From a virus: a stretch of DNA of 21,327 bases. Below the pieces are notes generated by a model. That model made no database searches. It was not told the origin of the DNA and saw nothing but the letters and a program-made list of their open reading frames with translations. Of the stretch, positions 1,373-21,327 are shown piece after piece. Location: positions 1 to 21,327 of IMG/VR virus record IMGVR_UViG_3300006921_000203; one strand, 5' to 3'. A program made the translations under genes and the position numbers. Within the stretch, counting starts at the first letter, position 1; each line of letters starts with the position of its first letter.

Positions 1373-1537
1373 ATGATAACTGAAGCTGAAGCGATTAATT
1401 TAGGAATCAAATATAAAAAAGAAAACCCTAAATGTTTTCATAGTGCTAAATACTGTGCTAAAAAAATTCTTCAACATCAAACTTACGAATGGTTTGAAGC
1501 TGATATGACAAAAAGCCGGAGGAACAAACAAGCATGA
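1373..1537 (+). CDS. Unrecognised 54-residue protein
   Basis: The start ATG at 1373 follows CGGAG at 1361-1365 with good spacing. The product reads MITEAEAINLGIKYKKENP and continues with two Cys, one His, and a basic tail (KSRRNKQA). Cys21, His23 and Cys28 could bind metal, but there is no convincing motif. The last codons contain CGGAGGAAC, which acts as the ribosome binding site of the next gene, and the stop TGA overlaps the next ATG (ATGA at 1534-1537), indicating translational coupling. No family is recognised. Confidence 0.65.
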   Translation: MITEAEAINLGIKYKKENPKCFHSAKYCAKKILQHQTYEWFEADMTKSRRNKQA

Positions 1538-2040
1538 ATATATTTTATTTTGATGAAGACCCAGTTGAAGCTGCCAAAGTTCAGCCTGATAAAATGCTAG
1601 TTAAGATGGTTCTCGAGACAGCTCAAATGCTATCTTGTGCCCATCGCGAACTTGATGGTGATGCTTATGCCGATATGCATAATTTATACAAATCTACGCA
1701 TAAAAATCATCCTTGTTCGATCTGGGTTAGACAGTCCAGAGCAAATTATGAATGGCTATATAAACATTTTATAGCTTTATCTGAGGAATATACAGAACGT
1801 TATGTTAGAACGCATTTAAGTTATACAAAACTTAAAAATGCTCTCTTTCAAACCCCTTTTAATATTCCAGCAGGCGAAATGACGCCAATTGCCCAGGCTA
1901 TGCCAGATGAGTATAAACATGAAGACCCTGTGACCGCTTATCGTAGATATTGTATCAATGAAAAGCATTATGCAGCTTGGAACGAAATGCCCGAACGTAA
2001 GCCAACGTGGTGGGAAAAGGAGATAAAAAATGATAATTAA
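1534..2040 (+). CDS. Conserved phage protein of unknown function (168 residues)
   Basis: The sequence looks like a compact, conserved domain rather than a random ORF. It has an N-terminal FYFDEDPVEAA segment, a helix KMLVKMVLETAQMLSCAHREL, a central STHKNHPCSIWVRQSRANY with invariant-looking His, Cys, Trp and Arg, then LYKHFIALSEEYTERYVR and a C-terminal TAYRRYCINEKHYAAW ending in PTWWEKE. I recall proteins of this shape as common hypothetical proteins in phages but cannot assign a function; a nucleic-acid enzyme is only a guess. Translation is coupled to the preceding gene by ATGA. The next gene starts inside its last codons, with GGAG at 2020-2023. Confidence 0.82.
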   Translation: MNIFYFDEDPVEAAKVQPDKMLVKMVLETAQMLSCAHRELDGDAYADMHNLYKSTHKNHPCSIWVRQSRANYEWLYKHFIALSEEYTERYVRTHLSYTKLKNALFQTPFNIPAGEMTPIAQAMPDEYKHEDPVTAYRRYCINEKHYAAWNEMPERKPTWWEKEIKNDN

Positions 2041-2460: not shown

Positions 2461-2817
2461 ATGAGCGAAATACAAGTTCAATGGAATGAAAATAGACCGG
2501 TAGACAAATTGAACACCGGAATAGAAACATTAGTAGCTAGTATAGAAAATTGGGGAAAAGATAGAAAAATAACGGTAAATGGTAATCCAATAACTCAAGC
2601 AATTAAAACATTGGAAGAAACGCATGAATTATTAGAAGCTGTTAATCGTAATAACCAACATGATATAAGAGATGCTATTGGAGATATTGTAGTAACTCTT
2701 ATAATGCAATGTAAATTACAAGGAATGACCCTTGAGGAATGTTTATTCTTTTCATTTCAAGAAATTAAAGATCGAAAAGGTGAATTGAACGAAGTAGGGG
2801 ATTTTATTAAAAAATGA
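2461..2817 (+). CDS. MazG-like nucleotide pyrophosphohydrolase
   Basis: MazG-type all-alpha enzymes hydrolyse (d)NTPs to monophosphates plus pyrophosphate using Mg ions held by acidic helices. Visible here are KTLEETHELLEAV (Glu52, Glu53, Glu56) and, after a short loop, DIRDAIGDIVVTLIMQC (Asp71, Asp75), the usual paired acidic helices, then a third helix with EEC and a final FQEIKDRKGEL. At 118 residues it is a single-domain phage-type member. The start is preceded by CGGGGAT at 2451-2457. T4 dCTPase belongs to the same fold superfamily. With a likely dCMP-directed ThyA-family gene 640 bases downstream, a role in making dCMP from dCTP is attractive but unproven. Confidence 0.82.
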   Translation: MSEIQVQWNENRPVDKLNTGIETLVASIENWGKDRKITVNGNPITQAIKTLEETHELLEAVNRNNQHDIRDAIGDIVVTLIMQCKLQGMTLEECLFFSFQEIKDRKGELNEVGDFIKK

Positions 2818-3023: not shown

Positions 3024-3320
3024 ATGGAAGAATTTAAAAAATTTGATGGTGGAAAAATTCGTTATGATTTAGTACCACCTAAAGTGATTCAAGGCATTGC
3101 AGAAGTTTTAACATTTGGCGCAAGTAAATATGGCGCTAATAATTGGAAATCTGTCGATGACCCTGAAAGATATGTTGGCGCTTTGTATAGGCACCTTGAA
3201 GCATATCGTAAAGGTGAGATAATCGATCCGGAAAGTGGATTTTCTCATTTAGCACACGCTAGCACAAATCTAGCATTTTTAATAGAACTCGGCCATGAGT
3301 CGAGCAATTGGAGTAAATAA
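3024..3320 (+). CDS. dATP/dGTP diphosphohydrolase-like protein (former DUF5664 type)
   Basis: The whole 98-residue protein matches the remembered pattern of the phage family now called dATP/dGTP diphosphohydrolase N-terminal domain. It has a K-x-RYDLVPP start (residues 11-19), LTFGASKYGANNW (29-41), ALYRHLEAYRKGE (53-65) and DPESGFSHLAHASTNLAFLIE (68-88). The paired RH...E and DxE...H segments are the likely metal and phosphate ligands of an HD/MazG-like helical fold. Relatives include the MazZ protein of 2-aminoadenine phages, but no PurZ-like gene is seen in this window, so Z-DNA is not implied. It sits between the MazG-like and ThyA-family genes, suggesting shared work on dNTP pools. AAAGGAG supports the start. 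Confidence 0.75.
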   Translation: MEEFKKFDGGKIRYDLVPPKVIQGIAEVLTFGASKYGANNWKSVDDPERYVGALYRHLEAYRKGEIIDPESGFSHLAHASTNLAFLIELGHESSNWSK

Positions 3321-3458: not shown

Positions 3459-4202
3459 ATGTATATTGATGAGGTGTACAAACAGCTTGTCAAAGAAATT
3501 TTAGCCGATGGCGTTCAGAGGGATACCAGAAATGGTAAAACTCTGAGCGTTTTTGGCACTAGTATCAAATTTGATATAGCTGAAATAGGACTTCCTTTAT
3601 TAAGTTATAGGAAGATTTTTACTAAAGGAATAGTAGGTGAGTTTTTAGGCTTTTTACAAGATGTTAAAACAAATGAAGAGTTTGAAGCTTTAGGTTGTTC
3701 ATATTGGAAACTTTGGGCGGATAAAGATGGCAAACTTGAATTAGACTATCCTCCACGAAAGCAATGGAAAGCTTTAATTGATGGCATTAAGAAAGATCCA
3801 AACAGTCGAAGGCATATGATTAATCTATGGAATTCAGATCGTTTAGATGAGCTTAGTTTACCTTGCTGCCATTTTAATTATCAATTTTATGTTAGAAACG
3901 GGTTTATAGATTTAATTTGGACCCAGCGAAGTTTAGATGTTGCTATTGGATTGCCAAGCGACTTAATTCTTTCTGCGTTGTATTTAGCAGAAATAGGCAG
4001 AAAAACAGGATTAACGCCTGGAAAAGTAACTATGAACTTTGGAGATACACATATTTACCAAGAACATTTACAAACTATTGAAGATATGATTACAGATAAA
4101 ATTCCAAGCCATTCTCGAATAAATTTTAATTGGGATGGCAAAAATCTTGTATATTATGATTACTTTCCTTATGAAAAAATTAATTTTGAATTAAAGAGGT
4201 AA
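3459..4202 (+). CDS. ThyA-family pyrimidine (hydroxy)methyltransferase, probably dCMP-directed
   Basis: The enzyme family transfers a one-carbon unit from methylene-tetrahydrofolate to C5 of a pyrimidine nucleotide. Family marks are clear: Arg near residue 21-24 with TLSVFG, E61, WADKDG (86-91), SRR (116-118), catalytic Cys137 in PCCHFNYQFYV, QRSLDVAIG (156-164), and GDTHIY (195-200). The key difference is LPSD: Asp168 falls where thymidylate synthase has the Asn (E. coli N177) that selects dUMP. T4 dCMP hydroxymethylase has Asp there, and Asn-to-Asp mutants of thymidylate synthase shift to dCMP. The segment before RKQW also departs from the usual GPVYGKQW. I therefore predict dCMP methyl- or hydroxymethyltransferase; an ordinary thymidylate synthase is the alternative. 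No strong ribosome binding site precedes it. Confidence 0.85.
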   Translation: MYIDEVYKQLVKEILADGVQRDTRNGKTLSVFGTSIKFDIAEIGLPLLSYRKIFTKGIVGEFLGFLQDVKTNEEFEALGCSYWKLWADKDGKLELDYPPRKQWKALIDGIKKDPNSRRHMINLWNSDRLDELSLPCCHFNYQFYVRNGFIDLIWTQRSLDVAIGLPSDLILSALYLAEIGRKTGLTPGKVTMNFGDTHIYQEHLQTIEDMITDKIPSHSRINFNWDGKNLVYYDYFPYEKINFELKR

Positions 4203-5359: not shown

Positions 5360-7591
5360 ATGGAGAATGGAAGAGAAACATTACTTCTGCAAATCACCGG
5401 TCAGCTTAATCATATGACCGCGGCTATACCTAGAGGGCCTAAGTCCGCTTTTAGAAAAGTGTTATTAGGCACAGATAATATTCGAGGAATAGCCGGATTA
5501 ATTCTAGACCATACAATAAAAGCAATTTCTAAAGGAACTGGGCTAACCACAGCAGCAGAAGGGCTCGCTATTGAAATGAATAAGCTTACAACTTTTAATT
5601 TAAAAGCGGGAACTGGTAGGAAAGTTAAGTACGCTTTAATATCAGCGGGGGTAGAAGCTTTTGGCTCTTTAAAGTCTTTAAGTTATATAGACAAAGTAAC
5701 AGAAAGGCAAGGAGTTATGAAATTAAACAAGCTTGATTTTATAAATGAAAATAATTTATTATTTGATTATTTTAAAGATCAATTAACAATTTCAGAATTA
5801 GAGCTTCCTAAAGAAGATTATACTTATTGGACGCACCCTAGAAAAGATGGTAGAACAATTGTTAAAAAGATGCCTAAATCTTTAGCTTCTCAATATACGC
5901 ATATTAAAATGCCAAAGGTTTATGCAGCTCTGAATGCTTACGGTAGCACTAAATTCAAAGTAAATGAAGATTTATTAGAATTGCTGTCGCAAATGGAAGA
6001 AAATAATCATGAGTTTATTCCCAGGTTAATTGATTCTGAAGAAGTATCAGACGCTTTATATTCATTAATGAAATTTAAAAGAGTATCTGAATTTGTGGGC
6101 GAGCAAGCAAAGAAGTGGTATTTAGCTAATGTTAGCCAGCAACTTATGAAAAAAGGATTAACAACTGTTCAAATAGATGGAAGAAGTAAAAAGTATAGTA
6201 AAAGAAAAGCGTCAGGGTGGTTCAAAGAAAAAACTAGTGGGCCTCTTGACCTTGTAAGAGCTTCGTCTAAAAGATATGAGTTTGATAAAGTAACTTTTAT
6301 GGCAAAAAGAATGCAAGGTAAAACTTTTCATTACGATTTTCAATTAGACAGCCGGGGGCGTATGTACCCTGTTGTTAATTATTTTGAGCCAACAGGCTCT
6401 GATTTAGCTAAAAGCTTATTAATGTTTAAAAATGGAGTGCCTTTAAGCGATAATGTTTTATATAACTTAGCAATTCATACTGCAAATTGTATGGGTGAAG
6501 ATAAATTGGCTATGGATGATAGAGTATTATTTGTATGGGTGCATATGGATGAAATATTAAAGGCTGCGGAGGATTTAACAAATTCTGAGTGGCTAAATCA
6601 ATTTAAAAATGAGAAAAAATCTAAATTTCAGCTAATGGCCGCTGTATTAGAATGGAAAAAGTATCATGAGCAAGGTGAAGATTATATTTGTTATTTGCCA
6701 ATTGGGTTAGATGCAACTAATTCAGGCTTACAGGTATTATCTGCTGTAACTAGAGATACTGTTGGAGCTCAAGAAACTAACGTTATTAACCATCCTAATC
6801 AAGAAATTGGCGATGCTTATATGGTAATTGCTAAATCCGTGTTAAACGGTGGGTTTGCTTATAAAGATTATGAGCATTTAGGCAATAAGGCTTGGCGTAA
6901 GCTGTGCAAAAGGCCTACTATGTCGTATTATTATGATGCAGGCAGAGAGTGCATTCAGGAGCAAACTTATGATGATCGCAGAGACCATGGTGTTGATGCG
7001 TTGTCTGAAATGACTTTTGACGATGCATCTTACGTAGGTACTGCAATTTACGATGGTGTAGAGTCAGCATTTCCGAGGCAAACTCAAGCAAAAGAAGCAT
7101 TAAAGCAAGGAGTTGAAATTGCTTTGAGGGATAACGGAGGCAAAGCTTTAGTAACTTGGAAAACTGCATCGGGATTTACAGCGTTTCAAGATTATTCAAG
7201 AATTGAAACAGGTAGAGTTAATTGTAGTTTTGCAGGAAAATTAGTGCAATTATCTTTTCAATTGTTTATAGATAAGCCGATGAAAAGTGACCATGCTAAA
7301 GGTATAGGAGCTAATTTTGTGCATTCGCAAGATGCCGCGTTATTATCGTTGACTATAGCTAATTTAGCAGAAAAAGGGGTTGAATCGTTTATGATGATTC
7401 ACGACCAATTTTCAGTTAATGCCGAAGAAACTTCTCTACTATTGGAAACATTCAAAGAAACATTTATTGAAATATTTGAAAAAGACCAATTAGGAGATGC
7501 TCTTAAAGCGTTTGGGCTGCATGCCAATCCGGTTATGTACGGAAATTTAGATATACAAGATGTAGCGGAAGCTAAATATATAATTTCATAA
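5360..7591 (+). CDS. Single-subunit DNA-directed RNA polymerase (T7/N4 RNAPII class)
   Basis: This enzyme would transcribe the phage genome from phage-specific promoters. Catalytic elements appear in order. DSRGR is at residues 330-334. Motif A is LPIGLDATNSGLQ, with Asp451 as the first metal ligand. Motif B is R513...KRPTMSYYYDAG, with Lys517 and Tyr525 matching T7 K631 and Y639. Motif C is FVHSQDA...MMIHDQF, with Asp682 as the second metal ligand. The Gly that follows the motif B Tyr in T7 is Asp526 here. At 743 residues it is about 140 shorter than T7 RNA polymerase, mostly in the N-terminal domain, so promoter recognition may differ. AAAGGAGG gives a strong start. It lies just after the early-type small genes, as in T7 and N4. 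Confidence 0.95.
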   Translation: MENGRETLLLQITGQLNHMTAAIPRGPKSAFRKVLLGTDNIRGIAGLILDHTIKAISKGTGLTTAAEGLAIEMNKLTTFNLKAGTGRKVKYALISAGVEAFGSLKSLSYIDKVTERQGVMKLNKLDFINENNLLFDYFKDQLTISELELPKEDYTYWTHPRKDGRTIVKKMPKSLASQYTHIKMPKVYAALNAYGSTKFKVNEDLLELLSQMEENNHEFIPRLIDSEEVSDALYSLMKFKRVSEFVGEQAKKWYLANVSQQLMKKGLTTVQIDGRSKKYSKRKASGWFKEKTSGPLDLVRASSKRYEFDKVTFMAKRMQGKTFHYDFQLDSRGRMYPVVNYFEPTGSDLAKSLLMFKNGVPLSDNVLYNLAIHTANCMGEDKLAMDDRVLFVWVHMDEILKAAEDLTNSEWLNQFKNEKKSKFQLMAAVLEWKKYHEQGEDYICYLPIGLDATNSGLQVLSAVTRDTVGAQETNVINHPNQEIGDAYMVIAKSVLNGGFAYKDYEHLGNKAWRKLCKRPTMSYYYDAGRECIQEQTYDDRRDHGVDALSEMTFDDASYVGTAIYDGVESAFPRQTQAKEALKQGVEIALRDNGGKALVTWKTASGFTAFQDYSRIETGRVNCSFAGKLVQLSFQLFIDKPMKSDHAKGIGANFVHSQDAALLSLTIANLAEKGVESFMMIHDQFSVNAEETSLLLETFKETFIEIFEKDQLGDALKAFGLHANPVMYGNLDIQDVAEAKYIIS

Positions 7592-7860: not shown

Positions 7861-8388
7861 ATGAATACATGCACAAGTTGTAAAATAGAACTTGTCGATG
7901 GAGCTAATTGGTCTGCGAAAGGCAGGCATAAGTTTTGTAGGGCATGTTTTAAAAATAAATACAATAAAAAGAGAATGTTCTTAGATGGAAAGTATATTCC
8001 CATTTCAAGTAAAATTCATAAACCAGGAATATTCAAGTCATTAGATGATGCGTGGTCACACGTTGAGTTAGACAATAAAGATGTTTCAGGAGAAATTTAT
8101 ATTATGACTAACGAGGCTTTTAAAGGTTGGGTTAAAGTAGGTATGAGTATTAATGCTAAAGATAGATTAACAAAATACCAAACTGGCGATCCCCATAGGT
8201 CTTATAAGTTATATAGCACATTCCATACAGAAGATAGACATGAAACAGAGGGACAAATTCACCAGATTCTACAAGCTGAGTACAAACGACAAAATGAGTG
8301 GTTTAAAGCTAAGCCCCAAGAAGCTGAATGGATTATTTCTCAATATTTTGGAGTAAGATATGAAGAAACAAATAAAAGCGCTAATTGA
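7861..8388 (+). CDS. Zinc-finger protein with GIY-YIG-like (T5orf172/MUG113-type) domain
   Basis: The N-terminus has four cysteines as C4-x2-C7 and C26-x2-C29, a likely small zinc finger. The C-terminal half matches the T5orf172/MUG113 branch of the GIY-YIG nuclease superfamily: EIYIMTN (78-84), WVKVGMS (90-96), Arg102 in AKDRLTKYQTGDP, then RHETEGQIHQIL with Glu130 and His134, and NEWF at 145-148. Such proteins are often stand-alone homing-type nucleases or phage DNA-processing proteins. The zinc finger suggests DNA contact. The exonuclease gene starts inside its last 29 bases. TAGGAG lies upstream of the ATG at 7861. Actual nuclease activity is not certain. Confidence 0.78.
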   Translation: MNTCTSCKIELVDGANWSAKGRHKFCRACFKNKYNKKRMFLDGKYIPISSKIHKPGIFKSLDDAWSHVELDNKDVSGEIYIMTNEAFKGWVKVGMSINAKDRLTKYQTGDPHRSYKLYSTFHTEDRHETEGQIHQILQAEYKRQNEWFKAKPQEAEWIISQYFGVRYEETNKSAN

Positions 8389-18365: not shown

Positions 18366-21327
18366 TTATCCTCCTCGAACAACGTTAGTAAATCTTTCTA
18401 CAGGTTGTGCTCCAATATCAAACTTAGTTTCCATAGTTAAACCCTTAGCTTCAATTTTAGCTAGTATACTTTCCGTGGACATACCAGTAGCTTTAGCTAA
18501 GCCTTCAACCATCTTTTCTCTAATATTGTAATTAGCGTGGAGATCTTGAAATACTTTTCCTGATAATTGTTTGACCGCCTTAACATCATTTGGATGAACA
18601 AAGAATGCGTCATGCACAACTCTAACTTCAATACCTGCGGCATCCGCAGCTTGAACCAATTTATGCAAAAATCCCGCGTCCATCATATGTGTTACATTAG
18701 GCGCCATTCCCTGAGTCACCATTTTTGCATCTGTTGCAATCTTTTTAATGGCTTCAGGGGATATATCAGATTTAGGGACTTGATTGTATACAGTTACTTC
18801 TTGCCCTCTCCATTTAGCATCTTTTGCTGCCGCTAAATCGGGAACACCTTCAGGGCCAATAGTGGACCTAAAAGTTCTTTCGCTTCCCATAACATATCTT
18901 GTTAAGTCAGTTATATCACCAGAGGGGCCTTCAACTAGCAAAGGCTTTCTATTTTTAGCAGTGTTAAAAATCTTACCTATAACAGAATTAAATTCTTTAA
19001 ATTGATATTGAGTAGCAAGACCTTCATTTAAAGCCTTAGCCATACCCTTATCCCAATGAAATTCCATTAATTCGTCGGGATCAACACCACGTTCTAAAAT
19101 TGCTAACTTTTTTCTGCCATCTAATTGCGTGTTTAAATCAATTTTAAGAGTATCGTTTCCTGCTCCATAAGGAACTTTCATAACAATAGGTTTAACAATT
19201 CCTCTGTCCCCACCTAAAAATTCGTCTGAAATTTCTTTAAACAAACGAGCTTTTTCAGGATCGGTTTGGGCTAGCTCTTCGTAGCTAGACTCCATATACT
19301 TTTTGTATTTAACTCCAACATCTGTGTATAAGTCTTTAGCAATAGCGTCATCTGGAACACCTTCACTTAGCATTCTTATTTCTGCAGCAGTCAATCCTGT
19401 ACGGTCAACGGGGTCAGTAAGGACACTTGTTAACTTTAATATATTTTCATCACCGTATTGTGCGCCAATATGCTGAGAACCTGAAGAAGGCGCGTCAACC
19501 TCAATCATCATATTAGACTCATAAGGAACACCATTATCATGCGCTTTCTTAATCCGAGCTACTTCCATAACTCCTCTTAAATAAGGCCCCGCATCTTTTC
19601 GGTTCATCCATTTTGGATTCCAATCAGGATTATTTACATTGTCTAAAGCTTCTTGACCTTGCTTAAGGTAAGTATCTTTATTTTTTAGCCAATGCGAATG
19701 TCTATCTAATCCAGTGCCTTGTATTTTACTCAATCCCGCTTTATCGTCAAATAAAACTAAATCATCAACAATTTGGTTAAAGCCTTCATCCCCGTATACT
19801 ATCGGCTTTTTAGCCCCTGTAAAACCATGCCTAATTGCACCACCAGAGTTTAAAGAAGCTCCGGAAGGGTCTATAGGCGAAGTGCGCCCTCGCGTATCAA
19901 CATTATGTTGCATATAAACTTTAGCTTCAGGGTCATTAGCAAATCTTTTTTCCAACTCTTCGTCTAGTCTTCTAGTAAAGCTTTGTTTAGATTTGTACTG
20001 ATCTCCCCTAGTTTTAGTTTCTTTAGCAATAGAATCTAATGCTTTTGCGCGGCTTGAGAATGTCGATTCTTTTAATTCGATAAACTGCTTTCCTGTAGCA
20101 GGCTTATTAGGAAATGCCTCTTTAAGCATCTCCCCCAATTTATCGTACGCTTCAGTTAATTCATCTTGCTCTGTGTCAGTTAATCTGTGCATATTTAATG
20201 ACTCTTTATGCTCAGCTAATGGGCCAGGGCGTTCTTTTAAAATTCCCTTTTTGCCAAGTGTTTTAGTTAACGCAAAGAAATCTTTATCCATACCAAGCTG
20301 CTGCTTGCCTAAAATATTTAAGGATTTAATAACTGAGGGAAAGTTAGATTCTGATAATTGAACTTTGGTTCCTCCAGAAAAGAACTCTGCCTTAGTAGAC
20401 CCTCTTGGAAATCCAACTATTTCGCCAGCTTCATTCATAACCCAGTCACCATGGAAATCAATAGATGGATTTCTAGCTTCTCTAGGGCCTTCAAGAGCAT
20501 TCATTAATGTTCTTCCCCCAGAACGTGCCCAATCTTTAAAGCCTTTATTAGTAGTTAATAATAATTCGTCTTTAACTTCTAACCCTTTACCAATTTTGGT
20601 TTTAACTGTAGCTTCTTCAATAAACTCTCCTAAATTACCTCGGGTGTAGTTTAGCATAGTAGCCCCGGCTTCTCTACGTTTTTGTGGAGACCACCTATTT
20701 TTAGTGCCTATAGTCATACGGGCTTCTATCTTACGCCCTACTTTATCGTATAAGTCTTGCAAAGATACTCTTTCATAAACTTTTTCATGTCCGGCAACTT
20801 TTCTAGCTTGCCCAGCAGCGTTTTCGTCAATAACTCTTAGTGAGTCAATAAACATCCCGACTATTTTTTCATCGGACATATCTTCACTTTCAAATAATTT
20901 TTTGATGTCATTGCTTTTACGCATATCAGAAACAGACGACTTAAAGTTTTCAGTAGCTTTTGCTATAGAAGTAACTGTCTTATTACCCATTTCAGTTAAT
21001 TGCATAGTAGCAGGTTCAATTTCAAAGATATTTTTTACTTGCCCTTCAGGAATAAAGGTTTCAGGTGTATCTGGGCCATCCATAGCTAATCTAGTTTGCC
21101 CCTGCCCTAATTTAGATGAGTCAGCCCTTGCAGTTATAACACCTAGCTCACGAGTTCCATACGCCGCGTTTTGGTCAGCATAACTAGTGGGGCTAGTAAA
21201 TATACCCGGGCCTTTACCCGCGGCTGCAGGAGTCGATCCTGGACGATATTTAAAGTTACCTTCGTGAATGTCCCCCTGAGCATTTGTTCGATGAATATAA
21301 GTGTCCATAACTTCATCGCCAAAGTCA
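18366..21327 (-). CDS. Large N4 virion-type RNA polymerase (C-terminal part; 5' end outside window)
   Basis: The frame is open to the window edge (an ATG at 21308 gives 980 residues, but in-frame codons continue upstream), so the full protein is probably larger. Numbering from that ATG, all single-subunit RNA polymerase elements are present: DTRGR (471-475), motif A EVDAPSSGSQ with Asp605, motif B R702...KPIVMKVPYG with Lys706 and Tyr714, and motif C NVTHMMDAGF...VVHDAFF with His899 and Asp900. The Arg-4-Lys-8-Tyr spacing equals T7 and N4 enzymes. It differs strongly from the other polymerase here. N4 carries a giant virion RNA polymerase encoded on the strand opposite its early genes, as here. 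Residues 1-100 may be a separate ART-like domain. Confidence 0.85.
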   Translation of the reverse strand, partial: DFGDEVMDTYIHRTNAQGDIHEGNFKYRPGSTPAAAGKGPGIFTSPTSYADQNAAYGTRELGVITARADSSKLGQGQTRLAMDGPDTPETFIPEGQVKNIFEIEPATMQLTEMGNKTVTSIAKATENFKSSVSDMRKSNDIKKLFESEDMSDEKIVGMFIDSLRVIDENAAGQARKVAGHEKVYERVSLQDLYDKVGRKIEARMTIGTKNRWSPQKRREAGATMLNYTRGNLGEFIEEATVKTKIGKGLEVKDELLLTTNKGFKDWARSGGRTLMNALEGPREARNPSIDFHGDWVMNEAGEIVGFPRGSTKAEFFSGGTKVQLSESNFPSVIKSLNILGKQQLGMDKDFFALTKTLGKKGILKERPGPLAEHKESLNMHRLTDTEQDELTEAYDKLGEMLKEAFPNKPATGKQFIELKESTFSSRAKALDSIAKETKTRGDQYKSKQSFTRRLDEELEKRFANDPEAKVYMQHNVDTRGRTSPIDPSGASLNSGGAIRHGFTGAKKPIVYGDEGFNQIVDDLVLFDDKAGLSKIQGTGLDRHSHWLKNKDTYLKQGQEALDNVNNPDWNPKWMNRKDAGPYLRGVMEVARIKKAHDNGVPYESNMMIEVDAPSSGSQHIGAQYGDENILKLTSVLTDPVDRTGLTAAEIRMLSEGVPDDAIAKDLYTDVGVKYKKYMESSYEELAQTDPEKARLFKEISDEFLGGDRGIVKPIVMKVPYGAGNDTLKIDLNTQLDGRKKLAILERGVDPDELMEFHWDKGMAKALNEGLATQYQFKEFNSVIGKIFNTAKNRKPLLVEGPSGDITDLTRYVMGSERTFRSTIGPEGVPDLAAAKDAKWRGQEVTVYNQVPKSDISPEAIKKIATDAKMVTQGMAPNVTHMMDAGFLHKLVQAADAAGIEVRVVHDAFFVHPNDVKAVKQLSGKVFQDLHANYNIREKMVEGLAKATGMSTESILAKIEAKGLTMETKFDIGAQPVERFTNVVRGG

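Follow-up and report, generated by a model that had tools for sequence, protein, structure and literature searches.

The ThyA-family enzyme encoded in the viral DNA analyzed here is probably a dCMP 5-methylase that supplies the phage with 5-methylcytosine (5mC) DNA. A sequence-only reading of the gene had proposed dCMP as a substrate, and at the level of sequence this proposal is well supported, because of (i) the residue at the position equivalent to Asn177 of E. coli ThyA; (ii) the conservation of that residue across a whole phage branch; and (iii) the gene neighborhood. That reading had left the product as either 5-methyl-dCMP (5mdCMP) or 5-hydroxymethyl-dCMP. Of the two, 5mdCMP is the likelier, and the hydroxymethyl product is disfavored because the signature of T4 dCMP hydroxymethylase (dCH) is absent, the Cys-His pair and C-terminal tail resemble those of thymidylate synthase (TS), and small genes with a predicted DHFR fold accompany the enzyme in relatives.

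The window, i.e., the whole stretch of 21,327 bases that we analyzed, is a virus record and probably a fragment. It encodes a T7-type RNA polymerase, a gp2.5-like SSB, a primase-helicase, a family A polymerase, and a class I ribonucleotide reductase (features with coordinates are given in Table 1). The second single-subunit RNA polymerase, on the minus strand, could be a virion RNA polymerase. A DenV-type pyrimidine dimer glycosylase gene lies upstream of the cassette, and such a gene is likewise found close to TS in Vibrio phage VPMS1.

Table 1. Features of the window discussed in the text
Feature	Position	Strand	Basis or remark
Pyrimidine dimer glycosylase (DenV-type)	1534..2040		PF03013 8.4e-8
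MazG/PRA-PH-type nucleotide pyrophosphohydrolase, predicted dNTP (dCTP?) pyrophosphatase	2461..2817	+	PF03819 3.5e-7, PF01503 4.7e-5
DUF5664 dNTP pyrophosphohydrolase-type protein	3024..3320	+	PF18909 2.5e-31; 138 bp upstream of TS
ThyA-family protein, predicted dCMP 5-methylase	3459..4202	+	ATG start, 247 aa, PF00303 1.1e-51
Asp96-Tyr97, branch-specific Asp preceding general-base Tyr (ThyA Val93-Tyr94)	3744..3749	+	alignment
Cys137-His138, catalytic Cys and TS-type His (ThyA Cys146-His147)	3867..3872	+	alignment
Codon GAC of Asp168 (E. coli ThyA Asn177, T4 gp42 Asp179)	3960..3962	+	alignment
T7-type single-subunit RNA polymerase	5360..7591	+	PF00940 4e-53
T5orf172/MUG113-domain protein	7861..8388		Cys-rich N-terminal stretch
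Second single-subunit RNA polymerase	18366..21308	-	PF00940 3e-16; at least 980 residues

Fold and active site of the enzyme

The profile match, together with the catalytic Cys and the RS.D and GD.H.Y motifs, places the protein in the PF00303 ThyA superfamily, and TS models were its sole matches in an NCBIfam search. Its AF2 model (pLDDT 88.9) matched residues 1 to 264 of E. coli ThyA with a Z score of 28 and an rmsd of 1.9 A over 241 aligned residues, and a TS-type C-terminal tail was modelled up to ThyA residue 264. T4 dCH was absent among the matches listed in structure searches with this model, which carries no weight either way. The gene is under purifying selection, since its dN/dS against its nearest relative (L010, 85% identical) is 0.12.

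We derived residue equivalences from an alignment of the window protein with E. coli ThyA and T4 gp42. The alignment bore out the earlier observation that an Asp occupies the Asn177 position, and likewise that Cys137, RS.D, and GDTHIY are intact: QRS.D (residues 156 to 160) aligns with ThyA QRS.D (165 to 169), and GDTHIY (195 to 200) with ThyA GDTHLY. Asn177 is the mark of a canonical TS, and the window enzyme has Asp168 instead. Trp80, Tyr94 (ThyA numbering), and the tail are TS-like. At the His147 position, the window enzyme has His, T4 gp42 has Thr, and Xp12 relatives have Pro.

The T4 dCH signature consists of an Asp at position -3 relative to the catalytic Cys and a Ser at position -2 relative to the Tyr (PMC6400193). 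The window enzyme shares with T4 gp42 the ThyA fold, the Cys nucleophile, and the Asp at the cytosine-reading position, but it has Leu134 where gp42 has Asp145 and Leu95 where gp42 has Ser94, thus carrying neither Asp/Glu at Cys-3 nor Ser/Thr at Tyr-2, and it keeps both the His and the C-terminal tail. A second comparison is offered by Xp12, the DNA of which contains 5mC (PMC7653180). We represented this lineage by Bosavirus/Pamexvirus relatives (Stenotrophomonas phages DLP4 and AXL1; Pseudomonas phage PaMx28) rather than by Xp12's own enzyme and genome (MT664984). Their cassettes resemble those of the window's branch in the ThyA fold, Asp177, a linked pyrophosphohydrolase, and often a dCMP deaminase; they differ in having Pro at position 147, a different C-terminus, and DHFR genes of full length, whereas the window has His138 at the 147 position, an FxLK tail, and DUF5664, with no deaminase or DHFR seen. 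A third likeness is to engineered TS (E. coli N177D and L. casei N229D), in which Asp177 is combined with His147 and a TS tail; this replacement is reported to move the preference from dUMP to dCMP and to yield 5mdCMP (as cited in PMC8670742). The window enzyme differs from these in being natural and branch-fixed, and in its additional Asp96, Cys136, and Ser167 and its linked genes.

The window enzyme has Ser158, aligned with ThyA Ser167, and Arg117/Arg118, aligned with ThyA Arg126/Arg127; we take Ala176 of MilA to correspond to ThyA Ser167. In MilA-type CMP hydroxymethylase, Ala176 and Lys133 admit ribose (PMC5175136); use of ribonucleotides in the MilA manner was set aside for the window enzyme, which has the above residues in place of Ala176 and Lys133.

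The phage branch carrying Asp177

Of the 89 phage branch members aligned, 86 have Asp at residue 177 and three have Asn; Asp is also found in 13/13 IMG/VR relatives from other contigs at 45 to 85% identity, a few of these contigs being near-copies of one another. Asn177 was found in 85/85 canonical viral ThyA proteins sampled; the canonical set comprised 86 rows, and its sole Asp177 row, from Pelagibacter phage Kolga, is placed inside the Asp branch by the tree. The branch is monophyletic (SH-aLRT 99) in a quick tree of which some inner branches are unsure. L077, L081, and L091, the three members with Asn, fall within it, and we therefore read them as three reversions. Judged from the aligned sequences, Asp168 in the window enzyme is not a matter of chance.

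Further changes, which the sequence-only reading did not mention, set the branch apart. Asp stands at the ThyA Val93 position (Asp96 in the window) in 89/89 members, the three Asn members included; in the canonical set, this position is Val, Ile, Met, or Leu in 84/86 rows, and the one Asp row shown is again Kolga, a branch member. ThyA Pro92 is replaced by Leu, Val, or Ile, Pro145 by Cys (85/89 members), and Phe176 by Ser or Ala, and the conserved C-terminus, I-x-F-x-L, is of the TS type. Isolates belonging to the branch are Edwardsiella phage KF-1, Vibrio phage VPMS1, Pseudoalteromonas phage PH1, Dickeya phage Amaethon, and Kolga, the enzymes of which all have Asp177, Asp93, and His147. As the sequence-only reading had expected, all five are annotated as TS; the label is not universal, as the uncultured MW202665 record says 'pyrimidine hmase'. 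In a Gracilibacteria contig (L094, 8001-8759), the Asp enzyme has PSD at the 177 site; its reading frame requires genetic code 25, in which its 15 in-frame TGA codons specify Gly.

Asp enzymes of the Xp12 type lie on a separate branch of the tree. The tree groups the T4 and Xp12 types together, an uncertain placement given their long branches, and the number of independent origins hangs on this point. By alignment and tree, the present branch forms a further Asp177 lineage alongside those of T4 and Xp12; among these three, it alone has retained His147.

Nucleotide-pool genes around the enzyme

The order MazG-DUF5664-TS of the window recurs in three relatives (L010, L026, and L011), and many others, including KF-1 (gp27, deaminase plus PF18909), PH1, and Amaethon, encode a fusion of DUF5664 with a dCMP deaminase. 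In one locus (L053), a single 395-residue ORF, beginning 383 bases past the TS stop, combines pyrophosphohydrolase, dCMP deaminase, and DUF5664. A DUF5664 protein hydrolyzes dATP, dUTP, and dGTP to monophosphates (PMC12884076); that the proteins of these phages also cleave dCTP is something we infer.

A deaminase or DUF5664 gene was present within 3 kb in 61/77 branch loci versus 5/80 canonical TS loci (p ~2e-22, a value that ignores phylogeny), and a MazG/NTPP pyrophosphohydrolase in 63/77 versus 6/80, likewise ignoring relatedness; the profiles used to score the neighborhoods had proteins of the branch and of the Xp12 type as their training set, and these counts therefore favor the branch. 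A deaminase alone lies within 3 kb in 54/77 branch loci, and the HxE and PCxxC motifs are intact in 60/64 deaminase ORFs. Deaminase plus pyrophosphohydrolase also occur in 27/34 loci of the separate Xp12-type lineage. Among branch members, a nearby deaminase or DUF5664 accompanies 0/3 Asn versus 56/66 Asp enzymes (p 0.005, uncorrected). Genes resembling dNMP kinases (phrog_139, 2.7e-10 and 7.6e-13) directly follow the Asp enzyme in four loci (L033, L073, L074, and L076).

We found no deaminase, DHFR, or dNMP kinase in the 21,327-base window, which is a fragment; with no deaminase there, the host or an unseen part of the genome would be the source of thymidylate. Likewise, a PF00383 search of the 42-kb VPMS1 record was negative. 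Neither ThyX nor a second TS was found in 49 records.

In MetaGPA, phage contigs were selected for modified cytosine, and the modified contigs were associated with TS Asp177, PF01503, PF00383/PF14437, and ligase PF14743/PF01068, position 147 being the other modification-associated residue (PMC8670742). TS, deaminase, and PF14743/PF01068 ligase domains all occur in both KF-1 and PH1, and PH1 also has a weak PF01503 match. Taken domain by domain, the branch cassette appears to match the set enriched on those cytosine-modified contigs.

Proposed route, alternatives, and significance

Methylation of the TS type produces dihydrofolate, and a mini-DHFR adjoining the enzyme, as seen in some relatives, is expected if dihydrofolate is its product. 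In relatives, 11 Asp loci and one Asn locus have, next to TS or close by, a gene of 112 to 137 residues, shorter than ordinary DHFR; in 8 of these Asp loci it abuts TS. Their sequence matches to DHFR are weak, and profile-profile comparison with phage DHFRs gave nothing; their predicted fold (pLDDT 90), however, retrieved DHFR as all 50 of the PDB matches listed (E ~3e-6 to 5e-5). Members of this predicted-DHFR-fold family directly follow TS in L034, L039, L040, L053, L028, L029, L030, L088, and L091.

In the route we propose, the MazG and DUF5664 pyrophosphohydrolases would provide dCMP by hydrolyzing dNTPs, dCTP perhaps among them, to dNMPs. The enzyme would bind dCMP via Asp168, Cys137 would attack C6, and a one-carbon unit from methylene-tetrahydrofolate, followed by TS-type hydride transfer, would give 5mdCMP and dihydrofolate, as the active-site residues and neighboring genes suggest. 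Kinases would then convert 5mdCMP to 5mdCTP, the phage polymerase would incorporate it in place of dCTP, and the resulting virion DNA with 5mC would be expected to resist many restriction enzymes. Weighing against a dCMP methylase, His147 is kept, unlike in T4 gp42 and the Xp12 relatives and at a position associated with modification in MetaGPA (PMC8670742), and the window, though a fragment, is without deaminase, DHFR, and dNMP kinase. CpG and TpG frequencies, taken as a trace of 5mC, likewise gave no signal and did not clearly separate Asp from Asn members, and in open papers we found no enzyme assay, virion-DNA analysis, or restriction digest (KF-1, VPMS1, PH1) for the branch.

The main alternative, though an unlikely one, is a thymidylate route run in reverse order (dCMP to 5mdCMP to dTMP), in which 5mdCMP is mainly an intermediate, the linked deaminase makes dTMP from 5mdCMP or dTTP from 5mdCTP, and virion DNA is ordinary or partly methylated. 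The frequency of nearby deaminases with intact motifs fits such a route, as does a single TS with no ThyX; moreover, dCMP deaminases accept 5mdCMP, and an Xp12 enzyme converts 5mdCTP to dTTP (PMC12088426). Yet Asp is kept even though no deaminase was seen in the window or in the VPMS1 record, Xp12, the precedent, has 5mC DNA despite doing both, and in some relatives the adjoining dNMP-kinase-like genes fit direct use of the modified dNMP.

A T4-type dCMP hydroxymethylase leading to 5-hydroxymethylcytosine DNA is very unlikely: the Asp at the T4 Asp179 position would suit it, but the Asp145 and Ser94 of the T4 signature are missing, His is retained where T4 has Thr, the C-terminal tail that T4 lacks is present, and we noticed no glycosyltransferase gene among those of the window. 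The DHFR-fold genes of relatives, too, fit a dihydrofolate product, and hydroxymethylation yields none (PMC6400193). We consider least probable of all an ordinary dUMP-dependent TS that tolerates Asp, perhaps offset by the branch-specific Asp96. The TS-like Cys-His pair, Trp80, Tyr94, and tail would all agree with this, and the three Asn members with the same Asp96 background indicate that Asn and Asp are both compatible with the scaffold; against it, Asn is invariant in the 85 canonical TS, its change to Asp is reported to shift preference to dCMP (PMC8670742), and Asp accompanies a nucleotide cassette that is mostly missing at canonical TS genes.

If the dCMP 5-methylase reading is true, nature, too, would have adopted and fixed the single Asn-to-Asp switch engineered in the laboratory, while retaining His147. 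Asp177 together with Asp93 would provide a sequence rule for finding such enzymes, and the natural Asn members, which are without the deaminase/DUF5664 part, a built-in comparison. More speculatively, and with considerable doubt, this may be a natural dCMP-methylase lineage apart from the T4 and Xp12 types that keeps His147 and methylates first in many small phages, passing dCMP through 5mdCMP to 5mC DNA and, in phages with a deaminase (frequently as a DUF5664 fusion), also to thymidylate, such that one enzyme would be the source of both 5mC and T. The dCMP 5-methylase reading itself predicts modified cytosine in KF-1, VPMS1, PH1, Amaethon, and Kolga, as well as in many uncultured phages whose enzymes are annotated as thymidylate synthase.
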